Below, in pieces: positions 7,832 to 48,468 of a DNA stretch of 48,468 nucleotides. Under the pieces are notes generated by a model. The model saw nothing but the letters and a program-made list of their open reading frames with translations. It did not search any database and was not told where the DNA came from. Source of the stretch: Pseudopedobacter sp. (GTDB taxonomy: Bacteria; Bacteroidota; Bacteroidia; Sphingobacteriales; Sphingobacteriaceae); assembly GCA_014378105.1 (NCBI GenBank), contig JACMOI010000071.1:1-48468 (forward strand), written 5' to 3'. The translations under genes and the position numbers were made by a program. Positions within the stretch are counted from its first letter, which is position 1, and the number at the start of each line of letters is the position of its first letter.

Positions 7832-7858
7832 ACACGCCTCTTTATATTAATAAAAATA

Positions 7859-7896
7859 GTTAGGGTATCTGTATCATAACAGATACCCTAACTTTT
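7859..7896 (+). terminator. Intrinsic terminator between coxA and ctaA
   Basis: A perfect 14-bp stem, GTTAGGGTATCTGT (7859-7872) against ACAGATACCCTAAC (7879-7892), with a 6-nt loop and then TTTT. It stands 27 bp after the coxA stop and 10 bp before ctaA, so the respiratory complex genes and the heme A/assembly genes may be separate or attenuated transcripts. Confidence 0.8.
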
Positions 7897-15221: not shown

Positions 15222-15253
15222 AAAAATCTGGATGATTAATCATCCAGATTTTT
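15222..15253. terminator. Perfect 32-nt palindrome, bidirectional terminator
   Basis: AAAAATCTGGATGATT followed at once by its exact reverse complement. With A and T tails on both sides it can end the plus-strand OmpA transcript and, 18 bp after its stop, the minus-strand BNR gene. Confidence 0.8.
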
Positions 15254-37113: not shown

Positions 37114-38232
37114 TTAATGAGCATGTTCCTCAACTGCCATGCCTATAAATAATGCGGCTAGCATAGTAAATATGAACGCTTGTAAAAAACCAACTAAAAG
37201 TTCCAAGACATCCATAAATAATACAAATGCTATAGAAACCGGAGCCATGGCTATGGTTTTGAAAATAAATATTAAAGAGATTAAACTCAACACAATAATG
37301 TGTCCTGCTGTAATATTTGCAAACAAACGTATCAATAAAGCAAAAGGCTTAGAAACTACCCCTATAATCTCAACAATCCACATAATTGGTAATAACCAAA
37401 AAGGAACTTGAGGTTTAAAAATATGCCCCCAATAATATTTATTACCATTTAGATTGGTAACTACTAAAACTATAGCCGCCAATACAAAAGTTACATTTAT
37501 GTTTCCTGAAACATTAGCACCCCCTGGGAAAATTGGAATCAAACCTAAAATGTTATTAAACCAAATAAAGAAGAAGAAAGTCAACAACAAGGGCATAAAT
37601 CTTTCATATTTATAACCTATGTTAGTTTTTGCAATATCATCTCTCACGAAAATAATAATAGGTTCTAAAAAGGATTGAGCGCCTTTCGGGGCTTTTCCAT
37701 GACGTTTTCTATAAGAACCACTAATGGCGATAAATAGCCATAGAATTATTGCCATAGATATAAACATCGAAAAGATATTTTTTGTAATAGAGAAATCCCA
37801 TATTTTGGATGTTGCTAATTCGTCTACTAAGCCATCACTTCCTAATGCCTTAATATGTTCATGGTCATTGAAATAAGTGTAATGAGTACCATTATATTTT
37901 ACAGGCTCATGATGTTCATCCATTAAATTGGATGAAGAGAAAAATTCGATACCCTTATTGGTATATAAAATCACAGGTAAGGGTAATGATAAATGACCCC
38001 ATATATGCCAGCTGTGACTGTCTGCAATATGCTCTAAAACTGTTGCGGTTGGATCAAAGGATTCTTGTTTTTTTGCAAGCTCATGTTGTTCTGTTTTTAC
38101 CTCTGAAGCAAGTGTTTCTGAAGGGTCTTGAAGTGCGGTAGCGAAAGATTTAGAAACAATACAAGTTAATAAAAGTGCGTAAATTACACCTAACTTGATA
38201 TTTTTAAAACTTAAAATGTAGCTAATGTCCAT
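37114..38232 (-). CDS. atpB: ATP synthase Fo subunit a
   Basis: 372 residues, longer than the ~270 of E. coli because of an N-terminal signal-like helix and a soluble region of about 130 residues with His/Glu-rich segments (DEHHEPVKYNGTHYTYF). This long form is usual in Bacteroidota. The essential Arg is in FALLIRLFANITAGH and the last helices are intact. It forms the proton half-channels next to the c ring. Confidence 0.94.
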   Translation of the reverse strand: MDISYILSFKNIKLGVIYALLLTCIVSKSFATALQDPSETLASEVKTEQHELAKKQESFDPTATVLEHIADSHSWHIWGHLSLPLPVILYTNKGIEFFSSSNLMDEHHEPVKYNGTHYTYFNDHEHIKALGSDGLVDELATSKIWDFSITKNIFSMFISMAIILWLFIAISGSYRKRHGKAPKGAQSFLEPIIIFVRDDIAKTNIGYKYERFMPLLLTFFFFIWFNNILGLIPIFPGGANVSGNINVTFVLAAIVLVVTNLNGNKYYWGHIFKPQVPFWLLPIMWIVEIIGVVSKPFALLIRLFANITAGHIIVLSLISLIFIFKTIAMAPVSIAFVLFMDVLELLVGFLQAFIFTMLAALFIGMAVEEHAH

Positions 38233-38245
38233 CTATTGGGCGATT

Positions 38246-38635
38246 TTACTTTTTTGTTTGGTGGCGCAAGATACGTAACAAACTATAAATTTCAAATATA
38301 GTTAATAATAAATAAATAGAAAAAAAATTGGCTATAAACAATACCCCATCCACGCTGTTTTTTTGAAGATAAATCAACACAAATATCATACTTCCTAAAA
38401 AGCGAAAAACGATTGCAGATAGTACTACAAATGCTTGGTTTTTACCATCTATTTTAAATCCTAATACAGAAATTAAATAAACACCTAAAGTAATTGCTGC
38501 CATAAAGCCAAACATGATCCAAAAGTGTGGAATAAGTAAATGGTTATGGAAAAGAAAATTATTCATTAGCCAAAAGGCTAAGCCTATTGAGACGAGGAGC
38601 AAGAGGAAATTAAATAAAAATTTTGCTAATTTCAA
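38246..38635 (-). CDS. AtpI-like membrane protein of the atp operon
   Basis: 129 residues, four predicted helices, no clear enzyme motif. Size and position (between the small AtpZ-like gene and atpB) match the AtpI-type protein often linked to c-ring assembly or Mg2+ supply, but the sequence is too divergent for me to be sure. Its start overlaps the AtpZ-like stop by 4 bp. Confidence 0.7.
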   Translation of the reverse strand: MKLAKFLFNFLLLLVSIGLAFWLMNNFLFHNHLLIPHFWIMFGFMAAITLGVYLISVLGFKIDGKNQAFVVLSAIVFRFLGSMIFVLIYLQKNSVDGVLFIANFFSIYLLLTIFEIYSLLRILRHQTKK

Positions 38636-38862
38636 TTTGTGTTTTTTAAGCCCCTAAAAACAATATACAAAGCTATAACGACACCTAATAAACTCAAAAA
38701 AGCAGTAAATAAGGGTGTTTTAGATTCACGGGATTCATCAATTTTATATCCTGCAAAAGTGAAAACACCTATAATGCCAACCATTTGAAAGCCTAAACCA
38801 GAATATTTAATATAATTATTAAGCTGTGGCTTCTCTTTTTTCAATGATTTCTTCTCGTCCAT
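38632..38862 (-). CDS. AtpZ/AtpI-like small membrane protein (DUF F0F1-ATPase subunit)
   Basis: 76 residues: a charged start and two helices (about 23-42 and 51-70) with GFQMVGIIGVFTFAGYKIDE, the pattern of the AtpZ family, in which a Gly-rich helix is followed by GxxxD. It overlaps the bactofilin gene by 44 bp in another frame. No later Met would keep the first helix, so the overlap looks real. Confidence 0.75.
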   Translation of the reverse strand: MDEKKSLKKEKPQLNNYIKYSGLGFQMVGIIGVFTFAGYKIDESRESKTPLFTAFLSLLGVVIALYIVFRGLKNTN

Positions 38863-39256
38863 CTAACTGGGGTTTTAAAATCGATTTAGTTTGAGAAATG
38901 CCAGTTTGGCAATAGCCAGTAATATTTGCTCCGTTTTCTACTACCAATTTGTTGGCAATAATATCACCTTTAATATTAGCTGTTGCTTTTAGAAATAAAA
39001 GCTCTGATGAGCTAACGTCACCAATGATAATTCCTGATATTTCGGCACTCTCTGAAAAGATATTTCCAATTACTTCTCCAGTAGTTCCAATTACTACTTT
39101 TGCTTTAGAAATAACAGTTCCAGTAATTTTTCCATCAATTCTGATATCTCCTTTGGTGCTTAAATCTCCAACTATTTCTGTGCCAACACCAACAATATTG
39201 ATAGAGCCAGCTTTTTGATCGCCTTGTAGTGAATCGGTTTTTTGCTTTTTAAACAT
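38819..39256 (-). CDS. Bactofilin (polymer-forming cytoskeletal protein)
   Basis: 145 residues. The core (about 20-120) has repeating beta-helix sequence: IRIDGKITGTVISKAKVVIG, TGEVIGNIFSESAEISG and GDVSSSELLFLKATANIKGD. Bactofilins form filaments that localise cell-wall enzymes. It lies 11 bp after the M23 peptidase gene on the same strand, a known bactofilin-peptidase pairing, and overlaps the AtpZ-like gene. Confidence 0.9.
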   Translation of the reverse strand: MFKKQKTDSLQGDQKAGSINIVGVGTEIVGDLSTKGDIRIDGKITGTVISKAKVVIGTTGEVIGNIFSESAEISGIIIGDVSSSELLFLKATANIKGDIIANKLVVENGANITGYCQTGISQTKSILKPQLDGREEIIEKREATA

Positions 39257-39267
39257 TTGATGAGAAA

Positions 39268-40131
39268 TTAAAAAGTCATATAATTTTGAGGGTTAACTGG
39301 TGTGCCGTCAAACCATAGTTCAAAGTGTAAATGAGGGCCTGTAGAATATTCTCCAGTATCTCCTACTACGGCTATAACTTCTCCAGCTCTGACGAAACTA
39401 CCAACTTTTTTCATTAAAACAGAACAATGCTTATAAAAAGAAAGTAAATTATTACCATGTTGAATAGCGATAACATAGCCAGTTTCTGGAGTGAAGTTAG
39501 AAAAAACAACGGTTCCGTCTAAAGTGGCTTTAATATTTTCATTTCTTCTGGTGGCAATATCAATTCCGTAATGTTGCTTTTCAGAGTTGAATGGATCAGT
39601 TATTTTCCCTCTAAGAGGGCTAAAGAAAGCATAGGATGCAATCCCTGATTTATCTTCCTTATTTTCAGCATTTAGATCAAATTTTCCTTCTGATTCAATT
39701 AAGTTTCTTAGCTCTTTTTCTTCCTTAGAAATTTTTTGATTAAGCTTAATGCTGTCGGATGCTTTAGAAATATCTTCTGGCTTTTCTAATTTCTTATTAT
39801 CAACATTTCCATTTATAACGTTTTTTATATTTTTTAAATAAATATCATTTGCCTTAGATATTTGTTCTAAAGAATCAATTTTAGTATAAGCGTCTACAAT
39901 GTCCTTTTTAGATTCGGAGTCAGTAATCCCACTTAAATACTCTCTTAAAGGAGTATATTTAATAGTTGTAATTGTTAAGAATATTAAAATAATTGCAAAC
40001 GCAGTTGTCCCAATGATGAGATACCATAATGAGGCGTTGAATGACGCTTTCTCTTCAAATGTGTCGTCGTTTAATATAACGAGCTTGTATTTTTCCTTTA
40101 ACCTATCTATGAGTTTTTTTCTTTTACTCAT
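39268..40131 (-). CDS. M23 (LytM-type) membrane-anchored peptidase
   Basis: 287 residues: a cytoplasmic start, one helix (about 32-55), a coiled-coil-like linker, then the LytM domain with Zn ligands in HYGIDIATRR and HLHFELWFDG; a further His is in YKHCS. It is predicted to cut peptidoglycan cross-links or to act as an activator. It is the first gene of the minus-strand run that continues into bactofilin and atp genes, divergent from the SprE-like gene. Confidence 0.92.
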   Translation of the reverse strand: MSKRKKLIDRLKEKYKLVILNDDTFEEKASFNASLWYLIIGTTAFAIILIFLTITTIKYTPLREYLSGITDSESKKDIVDAYTKIDSLEQISKANDIYLKNIKNVINGNVDNKKLEKPEDISKASDSIKLNQKISKEEKELRNLIESEGKFDLNAENKEDKSGIASYAFFSPLRGKITDPFNSEKQHYGIDIATRRNENIKATLDGTVVFSNFTPETGYVIAIQHGNNLLSFYKHCSVLMKKVGSFVRAGEVIAVVGDTGEYSTGPHLHFELWFDGTPVNPQNYMTF

Positions 40132-40233
40132 TCTATCTCAAAAATCTTATTCTTATTAATATCTTTATTTCCAGAATATCGGCAATATAAAATAATTTTA
40201 CTCGTATTATTTCAATCATCTAAAAATACAATA

Positions 40234-43056
40234 TTGAAATTTATTTATAAACTTTTCACTAGAGGATTTTTTTTCCTAATTACAGGCACTCTTTTAAGCT
40301 GTTCTTCTCAAAAGGAGGGAAATAAATTGCATTTGATGAAAAATGTAACGGCTCATTATAATGTATATTTTAATGCAAGGGAGCTATTAAGAGAGAGTCA
40401 ATTGAAAATAAGAAGTTCTTATGATGATGATTATAATCAACTTTTAGAATTATCCCCAATTCCGGACGAGCAGTCTTCTTCTAACGAATCAGGAAATCTA
40501 AATCAGGTGATTCAAAAATCAAACACAATTGCATTAGAAAAGTATGAAAGTAATTGGCTAGATGATGCTTACTTATTAATAGCAGATGCGGAGTATTTAA
40601 AAGGTGATTTTTATAATGCGGTTGAATACTATAGTTATGTTGGGATCACTTTTCCTAAAGAAAAGGAGAATAAATTACTCGCATATTTAGGGGAGGTTAA
40701 AAGTTATATTGCTTTAAAAAATTATACCAAGGCCGATTCTTTGATGCAAATGGCCATAAATCTTAAGTATAAATATAGTAAAGATGAAGTTGCTTCATTA
40801 CAGGCAAAATTAGATCTAGAAAAAAAAGATATTAAATCTGCCATATTAAATTTATCAAAGGCGATAGATTTTTCTAAAGATAAGTATCAGAAAATTAGGT
40901 GGAGATATATTTTAGCACAACTTCAAGAATTGAATAATCAAACTGATGATGCCTATACAAATTACTCTAAAATTATAAAAAGTAATGCGGCGTTTGAGAT
41001 GTCATTTAATGCAAATTTATCTAGAATTAGAATCAGTGAAAGTGAAGAAGGAAAACAATTTGATAAAATAGCTACGCTGACTAAGTTGCTTAAGGAGGAT
41101 AAAAATAGAGAATTTAAAGAACAAATATATTATCAGATTGCGATTGCTTACCAAGAGAAAAACGACTTCGATAAAGCGATTACATTTTATAAACAATCTG
41201 CCCATACTATACCTGGCACTGTTAAGCAAAAAGGTTTAAGTTTTTTAAAACTGGCACAACTAAATTTTGAAGATTTAAAGAATTATACTCAAGCGCAATT
41301 ATACTATGATAGTACTTTGCAATATCTACCTAAAACTTATCCTGATTATAAAAACATAGCAATCAAGTCGAATAACCTTCAATATCTTGCGGATAGACTA
41401 ATTCTTATTGATGAAAACAAAAAATCTTTACAATTGGCCACTTTAACTAATGAGGAAATTGACGCTAAGTTTGAGGAGATTTTTAATATCAAGAAAGAAC
41501 AATTAATCAGCAATCAACAAAAAAGTCTTGTCAATTCTACGGAATTGACAAGTATCAGTAGTTTCTCTTCATCAAATAAAACTGGCGGAAATTTTTACTT
41601 TGATAATTCAGCGGCATTAAGCCAAGGATTTGATGAGTTTAAAAGGAGATGGGGAAACAGAAAATTAGCCGATAATTGGAGAACAAGCGCTAATGTCGGT
41701 AATAATGATAACAGAGCCTCATCTACAAATTTGATTTCAAATAATGGCGTTAACGCAGATTTAAAAACGTTCGAAGAAAAAAGAGATTCTTTAAAAGCAG
41801 AGTTTATTGGTAAAATACCGTATAGCCCTGCTGCAAAAGATATTGGATATGCCAATATTGCGAATGCTTTATATGAGATTGCGATCTTTTATAAAGATGT
41901 TTTGAAAGATAATAATAAGTCAATAGAGAGTTTCCAGAATGTTGTCGAAAATTATCCTAATTATGTAGATGCAGCAAATATCAATTATCAACTTTATCGT
42001 TTGTATCAGCCAATTGATGTACAGAAAGCAAACGAGTACAAATATCAACTGATTAAAAAGTATCCAAACTCAATTTATGCAAAGACTTTAAATGATCCAA
42101 ACTTTGGTAAAGAGCAAGAATTATTTAAAGCTCAAATCACTGAGAATTATAAGTTTTTATATCAAATGTATCAGCAAAGAAAATATAATGGTGTTTTGGA
42201 TAGTATAAATGCCTTAAGAAAACATTATAGTTCTTTTGGAGATATGTCAGCTCAGTATGCGTATTTAGAAGCTTTAGCCATTGGTAATACACAAAAGGTC
42301 CCTTCTTTTTTGGTGAGTTTAGATGGGATAATAAAAACCTATCCTGATGATGATCAAATTACGCCTAGGGTAAAGCAACAAATTGATTTTATTGCTAGAA
42401 ATAGAGCAGCATTTGACCTAAGACCTACTGCATTAATTAGTGATGATGAAAATGCACCAATGATAGATGAAAATATAACCTTGATTATTCCCAAAGTCGA
42501 AGAGCCTAAGTCGGTTATAAAAGAAGAGCCAAAAAAGGAAATAATTGCTGAAGTTAAAAAAGAAGAGGTTAAGATTGAGCCTATTAAACCAGCCAATACA
42601 ACTCCAAAGGTGGAGGAATCCAAAAAGGAAATAATTGCTGATGTCAAAAAAAGAGAGGTGAAACCCGAATCCGTAAGGCCAACTGAAATAATTTTTAGTG
42701 AAGATTTAAGCCAGAAACATGTGATTGTCTTTGATTTTACAGATGCTAAACAAAACATATCACAAGTTTTTTCTCGCTTATCTCAGTATTTCTATAAAAA
42801 CTACGATCCATCAACAGTCAAACTATTAATTAGAGGAGTTGGAATAACAGATAAGTTCATCATTATCAGCAATAACTTCTATTCTAAAAAAGAAGCAGCA
42901 ATAATTTTGGATGCTTTAAATGAACAATTACCAAAAATTATGGACGGACAAAGCAATGATTATTTTAAATTTGTGATCTCAGAAAGTAATCTGCAATTGT
43001 TAAACACAAGGGAAGCTGTTGATCAGTATTTAAAATTTAGCTCCGAAAAGAAATAA
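40234..43056 (+). CDS. sprE: Type IX secretion/gliding lipoprotein SprE/PorW-like (TPR)
   Basis: 940 residues: a lipoprotein signal (LITGTLLSC), TPR-like repeats in two blocks (about residues 90-390 and 520-700), a Lys/Glu-rich linker (about 750-825) with an internal duplication, and a C-terminal domain of about 115 residues. The N-terminal NVTAHYNVYFNARELL is typical of SprE/PorW, the lipoprotein linking the PorLM motor and PorKN ring of the type IX secretion system. The start is TTG at 40234, which alone gives the full signal peptide. It is followed after 2 bp by the PBP1A gene. Confidence 0.82.
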   Translation: MKFIYKLFTRGFFFLITGTLLSCSSQKEGNKLHLMKNVTAHYNVYFNARELLRESQLKIRSSYDDDYNQLLELSPIPDEQSSSNESGNLNQVIQKSNTIALEKYESNWLDDAYLLIADAEYLKGDFYNAVEYYSYVGITFPKEKENKLLAYLGEVKSYIALKNYTKADSLMQMAINLKYKYSKDEVASLQAKLDLEKKDIKSAILNLSKAIDFSKDKYQKIRWRYILAQLQELNNQTDDAYTNYSKIIKSNAAFEMSFNANLSRIRISESEEGKQFDKIATLTKLLKEDKNREFKEQIYYQIAIAYQEKNDFDKAITFYKQSAHTIPGTVKQKGLSFLKLAQLNFEDLKNYTQAQLYYDSTLQYLPKTYPDYKNIAIKSNNLQYLADRLILIDENKKSLQLATLTNEEIDAKFEEIFNIKKEQLISNQQKSLVNSTELTSISSFSSSNKTGGNFYFDNSAALSQGFDEFKRRWGNRKLADNWRTSANVGNNDNRASSTNLISNNGVNADLKTFEEKRDSLKAEFIGKIPYSPAAKDIGYANIANALYEIAIFYKDVLKDNNKSIESFQNVVENYPNYVDAANINYQLYRLYQPIDVQKANEYKYQLIKKYPNSIYAKTLNDPNFGKEQELFKAQITENYKFLYQMYQQRKYNGVLDSINALRKHYSSFGDMSAQYAYLEALAIGNTQKVPSFLVSLDGIIKTYPDDDQITPRVKQQIDFIARNRAAFDLRPTALISDDENAPMIDENITLIIPKVEEPKSVIKEEPKKEIIAEVKKEEVKIEPIKPANTTPKVEESKKEIIADVKKREVKPESVRPTEIIFSEDLSQKHVIVFDFTDAKQNISQVFSRLSQYFYKNYDPSTVKLLIRGVGITDKFIIISNNFYSKKEAAIILDALNEQLPKIMDGQSNDYFKFVISESNLQLLNTREAVDQYLKFSSEKK

Positions 43057-43058
43057 AA

Positions 43059-45293
43059 ATGCAAAAAAAAGAAACACTCAATAAGAGCGATATCAATAAA
43101 TATAACGGAGTCTTTTGGAAATTCATCATTGGCTTTGTGCTTTTAATCACCATTATTATTGTGGCTACATCATTTGGGCTTTTTGGAGAATTACCCTCTT
43201 TTCGCGATTTAGAAAACCCCAAAAGTAATCAGGCATCAATAATATATACAAAAGACAAAGTAGAATTAGGAAATTATTTTGTTCAAAATAGATCAAGCAT
43301 AAGGTTTCAGGATATTTCTCCAAATGTGATAAATGCGCTGATAGCGACAGAAGATGAACGATTTAGAGAACACTCAGGAATAGATTTTAAACGTACTTTT
43401 ACCATTATTTTATATAATTTGATTGGTAGAAAACAAGGAGCTAGCACCATTACGCAACAATTAGCGCTCAATCTTTTTTCAGATGAAGCAAGAGCGAAGT
43501 CTGTTTGGGCAAGGTTACCTCAAAAATTAAGAGAATTAATTGTAGCGGTTAAACTAGAAAGAAATTATACGAAAGAGGAAATCATCACGATGTACTTAAA
43601 TACGGTAGATTTTGGAAATAACTCCTTTGGCATTAAAGCAGCTGCTCGTACTTATTTTAATACCACTGCAAATAAATTAACAGCTGCTCAAGCTGCAACG
43701 CTCATTGGAATTTTGAAAGGGGTTACTTTATATTCTCCAACTCGAAATCCAGAAAGATCTTTAGGTCGTAGAAACTTGATTTTGAGTAAAATGCGTGAAG
43801 CAGAGTATTTATCAGATGATGAATATGCTAAAGAAAAAACAGATAGTTTGAATCTTCATTTTAGACCAACTAATCATAATGAAGGCTTGGCAACTTATTT
43901 TAGAGCCATCTTAAAACAGGACATTCAAAAAACATTAAAGGATCTATCTATTAGCAAAGCCGATGGAAGTTCTTACGATTTAGACAGAGATGGATTAAGA
44001 ATTTACACAACTATTGATTCTAAAATGCAGCGTTATGCCGAAGAAGCACAACGAGAGTATATGAAAGATTTGCAGCAGCAATTTAATCAACATTGGAAAG
44101 GAATGAATCCTTTTAAGGGGAACGAAAACTTATTGATCCAAGGGATGCATCGCTCTGATAGATATATCGCGTTAAAAGAGAATGGTAAGTCTGATGAGGA
44201 AATTAAAAAAGACTTCAATACCCCAACCAAAATGGAAATCTTTAGTTGGAAAGGAAATATAGATACTACCATGACGCCAATGGATTCAATAAAATATTAT
44301 AAAATGTTTTTAAGAAATTCTATGATGGCGATGGATCCATCGAACGGAGAAGTGAGAGCATGGGTAGGAGGGATTGATTTTGAACATTTTAAATATGATC
44401 AGGTAAAAATGGGAACTCGTCAAGTGGGTTCCACAGCAAAGCCATTTACTTACACTGTTGGTATCGAACAAGGCCTTTCTCCTTGCTATAAAGTAAATAA
44501 TGTGCCATTTACAGTAAAAGGTTATGGTGAAGATTGGACACCAAGAGGTTACGGCTCAATTCCAGGGTACCTTACCTTGCGTACTGCGTTGGCAAAATCA
44601 CAAAATTATATAACAGCTTGGGTGATGCAACAAGTTGGCCCAACTCAAGTGGCTACTTTAATTAAAAGAATGGGAATCACTACTCCTGTCCCTCCCTATC
44701 CATCTATTGCTTTAGGTTCTTTCGAGGCATCAGTTTATGACATGACGGGTGCTTATAGCGCTTTTGTTAATCATGGGGTTTGGAATGAGCCTATTTATTT
44801 GACAAGGGTAGAAGATAAAAATGGGAACTTGTTGTTTGAGCGTAAATCAAAAGTGGTTCAAGCTTTAAATGAAGAAACTGCTTATGTTATGACTTATATG
44901 TTAAAAGGAGTTGTAGAGCAAGGAACGGGTGTTAGATTGAGATATAAATACGGATTAAATAATCCTATTGGCGGTAAAACCGGAACTACAAACGACAACT
45001 CTGATGGATGGTTTATGGGAATTACACCGCAGCTGGTTTCTGGTGTTTGGACTGGTTGCGAGGATAGAGCAATTCATTTTAGATCTACAAATCTGGGAGA
45101 GGGAGCCAATACTGCTTTGCCGATTTTTGCATTATTCATAAAGAAAGTTTATGCCGATCCTTCATTGGGGATTAAGAAAGGAGACTTTTCTCCACCAAAA
45201 GGAGGGTCTACAATAACATTGGATTGTGATCAATATCAAAATCAAGAAAAATCTGACCCGGCAACTAAATTAGATGAACGTTTAGGATTTTAA
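43059..45293 (+). CDS. Penicillin-binding protein 1A (bifunctional glycosyltransferase/transpeptidase)
   Basis: 744 residues: one membrane helix near the N-terminus (FIIGFVLLITIIIVATSFGL), a GT51 domain with the catalytic Glu in ATEDERFREHSG and GASTITQQLALNLF, then a transpeptidase domain with Ser in GSTAKPF, SQN in AKSQNYI and KTGTT. It polymerises and cross-links peptidoglycan on the outer face of the membrane. It is 2 bp after sprE, so likely co-transcribed. Confidence 0.94.
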   Translation: MQKKETLNKSDINKYNGVFWKFIIGFVLLITIIIVATSFGLFGELPSFRDLENPKSNQASIIYTKDKVELGNYFVQNRSSIRFQDISPNVINALIATEDERFREHSGIDFKRTFTIILYNLIGRKQGASTITQQLALNLFSDEARAKSVWARLPQKLRELIVAVKLERNYTKEEIITMYLNTVDFGNNSFGIKAAARTYFNTTANKLTAAQAATLIGILKGVTLYSPTRNPERSLGRRNLILSKMREAEYLSDDEYAKEKTDSLNLHFRPTNHNEGLATYFRAILKQDIQKTLKDLSISKADGSSYDLDRDGLRIYTTIDSKMQRYAEEAQREYMKDLQQQFNQHWKGMNPFKGNENLLIQGMHRSDRYIALKENGKSDEEIKKDFNTPTKMEIFSWKGNIDTTMTPMDSIKYYKMFLRNSMMAMDPSNGEVRAWVGGIDFEHFKYDQVKMGTRQVGSTAKPFTYTVGIEQGLSPCYKVNNVPFTVKGYGEDWTPRGYGSIPGYLTLRTALAKSQNYITAWVMQQVGPTQVATLIKRMGITTPVPPYPSIALGSFEASVYDMTGAYSAFVNHGVWNEPIYLTRVEDKNGNLLFERKSKVVQALNEETAYVMTYMLKGVVEQGTGVRLRYKYGLNNPIGGKTGTTNDNSDGWFMGITPQLVSGVWTGCEDRAIHFRSTNLGEGANTALPIFALFIKKVYADPSLGIKKGDFSPPKGGSTITLDCDQYQNQEKSDPATKLDERLGF

Positions 45294-45303
45294 ACTAATA
45301 ATT

Positions 45304-45390
45304 AGACGGTCACGATAGCTCTAGGATTACATGCTATCCGCTACATCTTTATGTCCAGAAAAAGGACATAAAGTATACCGTCATTATCGT
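45304..45390. repeat. Compact structured intergenic element between the PBP1A gene and uvrC
   Basis: Three or four inverted repeats are packed in 87 bp: GATAGC (45314-45319) with GCTATC (45333-45338); CTTTATGTCC (45347-45356) with GGACATAAAG (45364-45373); GACGGT (45305-45310) with ACCGTC (45377-45382); and ACGATA (45312-45317) with TATCGT (45385-45390), which crosses the previous pair. There is no T run. It resembles dispersed palindromic elements that I recall from Pedobacter-like genomes (not checkable here). Confidence 0.55.
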
Positions 45391-45429
45391 TAACACCAAA
45401 TCAACAGAAATCAGAATTCCCTTATTATA

Positions 45430-47235
45430 ATGATGTTCGATTATAAATCAGCTTTAAAAAATATACCACATAAACCGGGTGTTTATCAATATTATGATAA
45501 ACATGAGGAGTTGATTTATATTGGAAAGGCAAAAGATTTAAAAAATCGAGTATCCTCCTATTTCAATAAGGATGGTCATAAAGTAAATGCTAAAACCCGT
45601 GTTTTAGTTAGCAAAATCAATAATATAACGTTTACCATAGTTGATACCGAGATTGATGCTTGGCTATTAGAAAATAGCTTAATTAAAAAGCATCAACCCA
45701 GATACAATGTCATGCTTAAAGATGACAAGACATACCCGTGGATTGTCATCAAGAATGAAAAGTTCCCACGTATTCAATGGACTAGAAGGTTGGTGAAAGA
45801 TGGTTCAAAATATTTAGGACCTTATCCATCAGTATCTATGATGCATTCTATTTTAGGATTAATTAAAGATACTTATCAATTAAGAACCTGTAACCTTCCC
45901 TTAACAAAACCTAATATCGAGGCTGGTAAGTTTAGAGTATGTTTAGAATATCAAATAGGTAATTGCAAAGGTCCTTGCGAAGGTTTACAGAAGGAAGATG
46001 ATTACAACCTTTCTATAGAGGAAATTAAAGATATATTAAACGGAAAAATTAGTGCTGTTCTTAAAATTTTAAAAGATCAAATACAGGGGGAAGCAATACA
46101 ATTAAATTTCGAGGCAGCCCATCGTTTACAAAGAAAATACGAGCTATTAGAACGTTATCAGAGTAAGTCAACCATCGTTAACTCGTCTATAACTGAGGTG
46201 GACGTTTTTAGTATAGCTTCTGATGATAAAATTGCTTTTGTCAATTATCTGAAAGTAATGCATGGCACTATTATCCAAACGCAAACGATAGAAATTAAAA
46301 AGAAACTAGATGAATCTGATGAAGAGCTTTTAACAATTGCCATTTCCGAGTTTCGAACAAGGTTTCAAAGTGAATCTAAAGAAATTATTGTTCCTTTTGA
46401 AATAGAATTAGATGATGAATTTGTAAAGTTTACTGTTCCAAAACAGGGCGAGAAGAAGAAATTGCTAGAGCTTTCACAAAAGAATGTGCTATTCTTTAGG
46501 AAGGATAAATTAGAACAATATGAAAAGTTAAATCCAGAGTTTAGATCAGAGCGTTTGCTTACGCAGATGCAAAAAGATTTGCGTTTGAAAGAATTACCTC
46601 GGCACATTGAATGTTTTGATAACTCTAACTTTCAAGGGAAATATCCAGTATCTGCGATTGTAGTATTTAGAGATGGAAAACCATCGAAAAAAGATTATCG
46701 GCATTTTAATGTGAAAACAGTGGAAGGACCAAATGATTTTGCGACAATGGAAGAAGCCGTTTATCGACGATATAAACGACTTTTGGAAGAAGGTCAAGAA
46801 TTGCCGCAGTTAATAGTCATAGACGGCGGAAAAGGACAGCTGTCTTCTTCCGTAAAGAGTTTAAAAAAACTAGGTATTTTTGACCAATTAACAGTAATTG
46901 GAATAGCTAAAAGATTAGAAGAATTGTATTATCCTGGCGATCAATACCCAATTTATCTAGATAAAAAATCAGAAACTTTAAAAATTATTCAGCAATTAAG
47001 AGATGAGGCACACAGATTTGGCATCACCTTTCATAGAAAAAAGCGAGATCAAGGAACCTTACAAACCGAGTTAGAATTAATTGAGGGAATTGGTAAAATC
47101 TCTGCTCAAAATTTATTGCGGCAGTTCAAATCAGTAAAAAGAATAAAGAAAGCCGCTGAACAAGATTTACTGCAAGTGGTAAATACAAAGCAGGCCAAAG
47201 CGATTATAAATTTTTTCCAAATAGAAAAGCCCTGA
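45430..47235 (+). CDS. uvrC: Excinuclease ABC subunit C
   Basis: 601 residues: a GIY-YIG nuclease domain at the N-terminus (PGVYQYYDKHEELIYIGKAK), the UvrC Cys set (RTC ... RVCLEYQIGNCKGPC, four Cys for an Fe-S cluster), the RNase H-like endonuclease domain (HIECFDNSNFQG, VIDGGKGQL) and a C-terminal helix-hairpin-helix (ELIEGIGKISAQNLL). It makes the two incisions in nucleotide excision repair. Two ATGs in tandem at 45430 and 45433 are both possible starts. The stop lies inside the terminator palindrome. Confidence 0.96.
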   Translation: MMFDYKSALKNIPHKPGVYQYYDKHEELIYIGKAKDLKNRVSSYFNKDGHKVNAKTRVLVSKINNITFTIVDTEIDAWLLENSLIKKHQPRYNVMLKDDKTYPWIVIKNEKFPRIQWTRRLVKDGSKYLGPYPSVSMMHSILGLIKDTYQLRTCNLPLTKPNIEAGKFRVCLEYQIGNCKGPCEGLQKEDDYNLSIEEIKDILNGKISAVLKILKDQIQGEAIQLNFEAAHRLQRKYELLERYQSKSTIVNSSITEVDVFSIASDDKIAFVNYLKVMHGTIIQTQTIEIKKKLDESDEELLTIAISEFRTRFQSESKEIIVPFEIELDDEFVKFTVPKQGEKKKLLELSQKNVLFFRKDKLEQYEKLNPEFRSERLLTQMQKDLRLKELPRHIECFDNSNFQGKYPVSAIVVFRDGKPSKKDYRHFNVKTVEGPNDFATMEEAVYRRYKRLLEEGQELPQLIVIDGGKGQLSSSVKSLKKLGIFDQLTVIGIAKRLEELYYPGDQYPIYLDKKSETLKIIQQLRDEAHRFGITFHRKKRDQGTLQTELELIEGIGKISAQNLLRQFKSVKRIKKAAEQDLLQVVNTKQAKAIINFFQIEKP

Positions 47236-47252
47236 ATTAATTCAGGGCTTTT
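47225..47252 (+). terminator. uvrC terminator, perfect 28-nt palindrome
   Basis: AAAAGCCCTGAATT is followed by its exact reverse complement, ending in TTTT. The uvrC stop codon lies inside the left arm. The foreign GC-rich sequence begins within about 10 bp of the right arm. Confidence 0.82.
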
Positions 47253-47262
47253 CTGTAGAGTC
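47253..47262. other. Abrupt composition break: probable chimeric junction
   Basis: Left of this point the sequence is AT-rich Bacteroidota DNA ending in the uvrC terminator; right of it the sequence is GC-rich and begins inside the coding frame of alanine dehydrogenase (codons GTC GTG GGG GCC from 47260 match the VVGA of the Rossmann loop). No repeat, integrase or attachment site is seen. An assembly or amplification chimera is the simplest explanation. Confidence 0.78.
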
Positions 47263-47838
47263 GTGGGGGCCAATGCCGCCAAACTTGCGGCGGGGCTTGG
47301 TGCCGCTGTCACGCTTTTCGATGTCAATCTGGAGCGATTACGCTTTTTGAGCGAGGTTTTGCCGCCCAACGTTGAAACCCTGTTCTCGCAACCTGCGACC
47401 ATCCGAGACCATTTGACGCGCGCTGATGTTGTAATTGGCTCGATACTTTTGCCCGGCAAACTCGCGCCCAAACTAGTGCGTCGCCAAGACCTAAAAACCA
47501 TGCAGCCTGGCGCTGTGATGGTCGATGTGGCTATCGATCAGGGCGGCTGTTTCGAGACCTCGCGTCCAACTACCCATGATGCGCCAACTTTTGTCGAAGA
47601 AGGCATTATTCATTACTGCGTCACCAATATGCCAGGCGCGGTGCCACGCACCTCGACACTTGCTCTCACCAACGCCACCCTACCCTTCGTGCGCCAGGTA
47701 GCGGCTCAAGGTTGGAAAGTTGCCTGCGACCAAAACGAGAGTTTGAGGCGCGGCCTCAACATCGTGAATGGCGAAATTTTTCATCCCGGTGTTGCCGAAG
47801 CCTTTCCGGTGTCAAATTCTGCTCCCGCAGCAGCATAA
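47260..47838 (+). pseudogene. ald: Alanine dehydrogenase, C-terminal half only (5' truncated at the junction)
   Basis: About 193 residues that match the second half of alanine dehydrogenase: the end of the NAD-binding loop (VVGANAAKLAAGLGA), the ribose-binding Asp in TLFDVNLERL, VIGSILLPGKLAPKLV, MVDVAIDQGGCFETSRPTTH and HYCVTNMPGAVPRTSTLALT. Substrate-binding Lys/His residues of the N-terminal half are missing, so this fragment cannot be an active enzyme. Composition differs from all upstream genes. The GTG at 47263 is not a true start. The source organism is not Bacteroidota by composition; I cannot name it. A hairpin follows the stop. Confidence 0.88.
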
Positions 47839-47844
47839 ATTCAA

Positions 47845-47879
47845 GCGGTGCGCCCCTCTAAAAAGAATTGGCACACCGC
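47845..47879 (+). terminator. Hairpin after the ald fragment
   Basis: GCGGTGCGCC (47845-47854) pairs with GGCACACCGC (47870-47879) with one mismatch, followed by TTCTT. It is a likely terminator of ald in the source genome. Confidence 0.6.
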
Positions 47880-47907
47880 CTTCTTAACGAGCCAAAAGAT
47901 GGAATGT

Positions 47908-47934
47908 TTGAAAATAGACTCTTATGGGTATAAT
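47908..47934 (+). promoter_or_regulatory. Sigma-70-like promoter of the LacI-family gene
   Basis: TTGAAA (47908-47913) and TATAAT (47929-47934) with a 15-bp spacer, somewhat short but with a perfect -10 box. This is the E. coli-type pattern, unlike the Bacteroidota TAnnTTTG element. Confidence 0.5.
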
Positions 47935-47956
47935 TTGGTGTAGCGGTAAACCAAAT
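47933..47956. promoter_or_regulatory. Candidate LacI-family operator (24-bp palindrome with central CG)
   Basis: ATTTGGT (47933-47939) and ACCAAAT (47950-47956) are perfect arms, and the exact centre of the palindrome falls between C47944 and G47945. LacI-family operators typically have a central CG. It overlaps the -10 box and the upstream ATG, so autorepression is plausible. Confidence 0.5.
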
Positions 47957-48468
47957 GCCTGAGCAAGACACTTTCTCTCCTTCCATGGCGCGCGATGCGA
48001 TCACGATGCAGGATGTGGCGCGCGAAGTGGGTGTGAGCAAAATGACGGTTTCTTATGCTCTGAACGGCACGGGACGCATGTCGGAAAAAACCCGTCAGGC
48101 GGTTCTGGAGGCAGCGCAGCGGTTGGGTTTCGAGCGCAATCCACACGCACAGCGTCTTTCCAATGGGCGCAGCAACAACACTGTCGGGTTATTTTCGTTG
48201 TGGTTCGATTTCGGCGTCGGCACCCAAAAGATGCAGTTGATTCAAAACACGCTCAACGAACGCGGCTTCGACGTGCCCATCTATGGTGCAGGACTACGCG
48301 ACTGCCGTGAGGCCAATGCCCAAGCGGCAGCCTTATCGGTGATTCGGCGCCAGAAACCTGATGCTTTGGTGTGTTCAACCGCCGGATTGCACGAAAAAGC
48401 GCTCGAAGAGTTGAGGCGTTACCAAAACGAGGGCGGAGTTTTGGTTTGCTACGACCATCCAGTCGATA
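47955..48468 (+). CDS. LacI-family transcriptional regulator (3' partial, runs off the window)
   Basis: The open frame has no stop before the window end. It contains the LacI helix-turn-helix: ITMQDVAREVGVSKMTVSYA, then LNGTGRMSEKTRQAVLEAAQ and RLGFERNPHAQRL, and the first part of the periplasmic-binding-like sensor domain (NNTVGLFSLW ... KPDALVC). The first ATG is 47955; the ATG at 47985 would also give a full DNA-binding domain and would leave the operator-like palindrome untranslated. It is foreign to the rest of the contig in composition. The ligand is unknown; no sugar genes are visible nearby. Confidence 0.88.
   Translation, partial: MPEQDTFSPSMARDAITMQDVAREVGVSKMTVSYALNGTGRMSEKTRQAVLEAAQRLGFERNPHAQRLSNGRSNNTVGLFSLWFDFGVGTQKMQLIQNTLNERGFDVPIYGAGLRDCREANAQAAALSVIRRQKPDALVCSTAGLHEKALEELRRYQNEGGVLVCYDHPVD

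Follow-up and report, generated by a model that had tools for sequence, protein, structure and literature searches.

A foreign alanine dehydrogenase fragment behind uvrC: a contig end that is very probably an artefact

The window, that is the whole stretch of 48,468 bases analysed here, corresponds to a complete contig (C103) of the host genome G000, an assembly of 3.35 Mb in 191 contigs rated 96.68% complete and 6.38% contaminated. Its last 1.2 kb raise the question of whether an abrupt change of base composition marks a native GC-rich region, a DNA segment recently received from another organism, or an erroneous join. The GC content rises from 33% (47161-47220) to 55% (47281-47340), and our recomputation returned the same values as the initial annotation, which had read the contig end as a chimera. 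Over longer distances the step is equally clear, with 33.1% for positions 1-47257 against 54.5% for the tail 47258-48468. The third-position GC is 27% in the host uvrC, 57% in the alanine dehydrogenase (ald) fragment of the tail and 63% in the tail gene of the lacI family. Scanning up to 20 kb from the start of 118 of the other 190 contigs (1.41 of 3.35 Mb, 600-base windows), we found no window above 50% GC among 6,745; ten of these 118 contigs consist of N throughout and were entered as GC 0. No further GC-rich piece was seen in the 118 sampled contigs, so that no wider contamination by this donor is visible, which counts against an artefact. The start of contig C43 reaches a GC of 0.48 and, by its letters alone, looks like an istA/istB-type insertion sequence.

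The position of the break could be fixed from both sides. The last genuine gene of the contig is uvrC (45430-47235, plus strand, 601 aa; TIGR00194, 499.3 bits), with 99% amino acid sequence identity to its counterpart in G006, a genome of the same genus. Contig C120 of G006 aligns with positions 37129-47257 of the window over 10,131 columns (97.2%), and the match ends at 47257. The last 57 bases of this match (47201-47257) are identical in both genomes, and divergence begins at 47258. The foreign sequence had been proposed to start at 47225; the comparison with G006 moves this start to 47258 and returns 47225-47257 to the host. From the other side, the alignment of the window with a metagenome-assembled genome (MAG) of Abditibacterium starts at 47261. 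The two sides of this sharp boundary thus match different lineages, G006 up to 47257 and Abditibacterium-family ald sequences from 47258/47261. The ald codon that straddles the junction (47257-47259) reads AGA in the window, and is a glycine codon in 82 of 82 ald loci (the best 80 of 487 relatives of the ald tail, plus two additional donor-family loci). Its first base, the A at 47257, agrees with the host and disagrees with ald. The non-glycine codon therefore limits the overlap between host and donor sequences at the joint to 0 to 1 base. The foreign part amounts to 1,211 bases (2.5% of the contig) and runs up to the contig end, so that its far side is out of view.

The first gene piece behind the junction is the 3' half of an ald gene (47258-47838, plus strand), the 5' half of which is missing. 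As had been noticed from the letters, it begins within the NAD-binding (Rossmann) loop: it enters the TIGR00518 model at position 179 of 370, matching positions 179-365, and the Pfam domain AlaDh_PNT_C at position 40 of 214. Among the best 80 of 487 relatives, the closest sequence is that of the Abditibacterium MAG (JAUJNG010000003.1) with 85% amino acid identity, followed by a runner-up at 62%. Searching the tail at the DNA level against 201 genomes of the phylum of this MAG gave matches in 77 of them, and the three highest scores (79, 71 and 67% identity) belong to exactly the three Abditibacterium-family genomes of the set. At the amino acid level the same three genomes show 85, 76 and 64% identity to the tail ald, whereas three genomes of the host genus, each represented by its best ald, reach 52-54%. 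A complete ald of the host itself lies on contig C72 of G000 and is 52% identical to the tail fragment. G000 shows a further, weaker match to the ald family at 25726-26814 of contig C29, interrupted by one TAA, and a second, more distant ald relative is likewise present in each of the three host-genus genomes. Judged from these similarities, the source of the tail appears to be a member or a close relative of the Abditibacterium family.

The second gene of the tail (47955-48468, plus strand) encodes the beginning of a regulator of the lacI family (PF00356) and is cut by the contig end, in agreement with the earlier description of the new sequence as running to the window edge. We compared it with two genomes, namely G041, the genome of the Abditibacterium MAG, and G006. 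The former gave 19 matches (best 53% amino acid identity) and the latter two (best 37%, over a shorter stretch). As this basis consists of two genomes and the base composition, the lineage of the lacI part is less firmly placed than that of ald. The 19 matches in G041 also indicate a large set of regulators of this type. The initial annotation had suggested looking in another phylum for a contig with intact ald and lacI genes. Another phylum does contain a complete ald of this lineage, but the lacI neighbour does not follow it: the intact pair was not found in the donor family, and another gene stands behind ald in the Abditibacterium MAG.

What should stand behind uvrC is indicated by the relatives of the host. 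Past the point corresponding to the junction, G006 stays AT-rich (31-36% GC per 250 bases) and encodes gldN, convergent to uvrC, followed by gldM and gldL. The gene beyond these three, which has only an FGE-sulfatase domain match in Pfam, we take to be gldK. In 14 of 16 other uvrC loci of the genus, uvrC is immediately followed by a gldN match, a count that leaves aside the seventeenth genome, G015, where uvrC gave no match; the two loci examined from other genera of the family are arranged alike. The exceptions within the genus are G010, with gldN about 5.8 kb from uvrC on one contig, and G008, with gldN on a separate contig; a rearrangement at this spot is possible in both. A search of 21 genomes for the protein GldN found it in 20, and G000 is the sole one without it. 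The 9.9 kb of G006 past the joint gave no DNA match in G000 among the 40 of 152 first-look candidates that were scored, a search that shows little without a positive control, and a 1.6-kb query spanning the joint matched on the host side only. Given the negative protein and DNA searches, the expected continuation is therefore missing from the G000 assembly as searched; its absence could be a true loss. The join itself was found in none of the 17 other genomes of the genus; the same junction in another isolate was one of the findings that had been named as overturning the chimera reading. Five of the 17 (G002, G004, G007, G015 and G016) had no DNA match to the query; four of these carry gldN directly behind uvrC, and G015 is uninformative.

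Between uvrC and the junction lies a perfect 32-nt palindrome (47223-47254), which overlaps and follows the end of uvrC and has a predicted folding energy of -24.2 kcal/mol (z = -7.1). Its length had been given as 28 nt. The break had been located within 10 bp of it, and the joint in fact lies three bases behind it. A hairpin, sometimes imperfect, occupies the matching place in all nine same-genus loci inspected by eye. As gldN follows uvrC in most relatives, the hairpin is most likely an ordinary shared terminator, probably a bidirectional one serving uvrC and the convergent gldN. A scan for consensus terminators did not list it. Two further structures of the contig, a perfect 32-nt palindrome at 15222-15253 and, at 7858-7893, a hairpin whose stem measures 15 bp, are probably ordinary terminators as well. 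Comparable hairpins are scarce (99 in 1.38 Mb of G000), and it is unlikely by chance that a joint would fall three bases behind one of them, though this was judged after the fact. We also asked whether hairpins bring about contig ends in general. The evidence for such an effect is weak, with hairpins at 4 of 185 contig ends of G000 against about 1.3 expected, and this slight enrichment leaves the role of the hairpin at the joint suggestive only.

These observations make it very probable that the contig end at 47258-48468 is an artefact, probably produced when a chimeric molecule or read was used to extend a broken end. The comparisons show the breakpoint, the lineage to which the ald side belongs, how a near-identical relative continues, and no trace of the join in the rest of the genus. 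The chimera proposed at the outset is supported by an intact ald of the tail's lineage in another phylum, by the continuation into gldN in the relatives, and by a join found in no other genome searched of the genus. In the sequence of events that we envisage, the host sequence would have broken off at 47257, three bases past the hairpin between uvrC and gldN, where coverage may have failed, perhaps as a result of the strong hairpin. A chimeric molecule or read, arising by ligation or amplification, or a join made by the assembler without any overlap, would then have connected the Abditibacterium-like fragment. The contig would stop 1.2 kb later where nothing supported a further extension.

A different kind of error had also been suggested, in which the palindrome itself misled the assembly graph through k-mers of the hairpin or its flank common to host and donor. 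The part of this suggestion that holds is the adjacency of joint and palindrome, to which the scarcity of comparable hairpins lends some weight. The part that finds no support is the shared sequence: the donor side of the joint is ald coding sequence, six words taken from the hairpin and joint were all absent from both strands of four ald loci of three Abditibacterium-family genomes (the donor strain itself not being among them), and host and donor overlap by 0 to 1 base where they meet. A repeat search and the word check on both strands likewise disclosed no repeat or word shared at the joint. Because the donor-family ald loci contain none of the tested words, it is unlikely that the palindrome alone joined the two genomes, and we regard this explanation as improbable. 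With the six words absent, a shared k-mer is a less likely cause than a chimeric molecule or read or a join made without overlap.

We consider a very recent and real transfer to be highly improbable. Here Abditibacterium-like DNA would have entered behind the uvrC terminator by illegitimate recombination, and would have displaced or deleted gldN, at one end of the gliding/type IX secretion gene cluster. A site downstream of a terminator would tolerate an insertion, and the G000 assembly does lack gldN although its rated completeness is high. Against this, the foreign sequence is entered in the middle of a gene. We saw no start, no border repeat, no tRNA at the border of the foreign part and no mobile gene among the listed ORFs, which bears out the earlier remark that start, repeat and integrase are all missing there. 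Moreover, the foreign part reaches the contig end after only 1.2 kb, its composition is unlike that of the host, and G000 already has an ald of its own. That the join was found in none of the 17 other genomes of the genus, and the presence of gldN at this place in 14 of their 16 uvrC loci, also speak against a transfer. As for a native host sequence with locally higher GC, its probability is close to nil: nothing was found in its favour, and the ald lineage, the comparison with G006, the base composition and the usual gldN neighbour all speak against it.

An erroneous join of this kind has parallels among known artefacts. Chimeric contigs are described as a known class of error in metagenome-assembled genomes, relatively rare compared with mis-binning (PMC8201837). 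The contig studied here resembles those discussed there in that two distant lineages occur on one contig, and differs from them in that its foreign part is a single short end (2.5%) situated behind a hairpin. For chimeras formed during amplification (MDA), another report (PMC1855051) states that, when the joined segments lie more than 10 kb apart, only 34.8% of inverted and 27.6% of direct joins have at least two shared bases. The likeness to our junction is that the molecules joined are unrelated and have few or no bases in common. The MDA chimeras of that report differ in being mostly inverted joins (406 of 475; PMC1855051).

The ald/lacI fragment itself is probably genuine, a short stretch from a lineage that has been little sampled (three family genomes), and perhaps comes from the same sample as the host. 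Taken at face value, the contig end would wrongly suggest a transfer between phyla and would misstate the gene order behind uvrC. Bases 47258-48468 should for this reason be trimmed from the contig, and the tail holds no biological interest beyond that.
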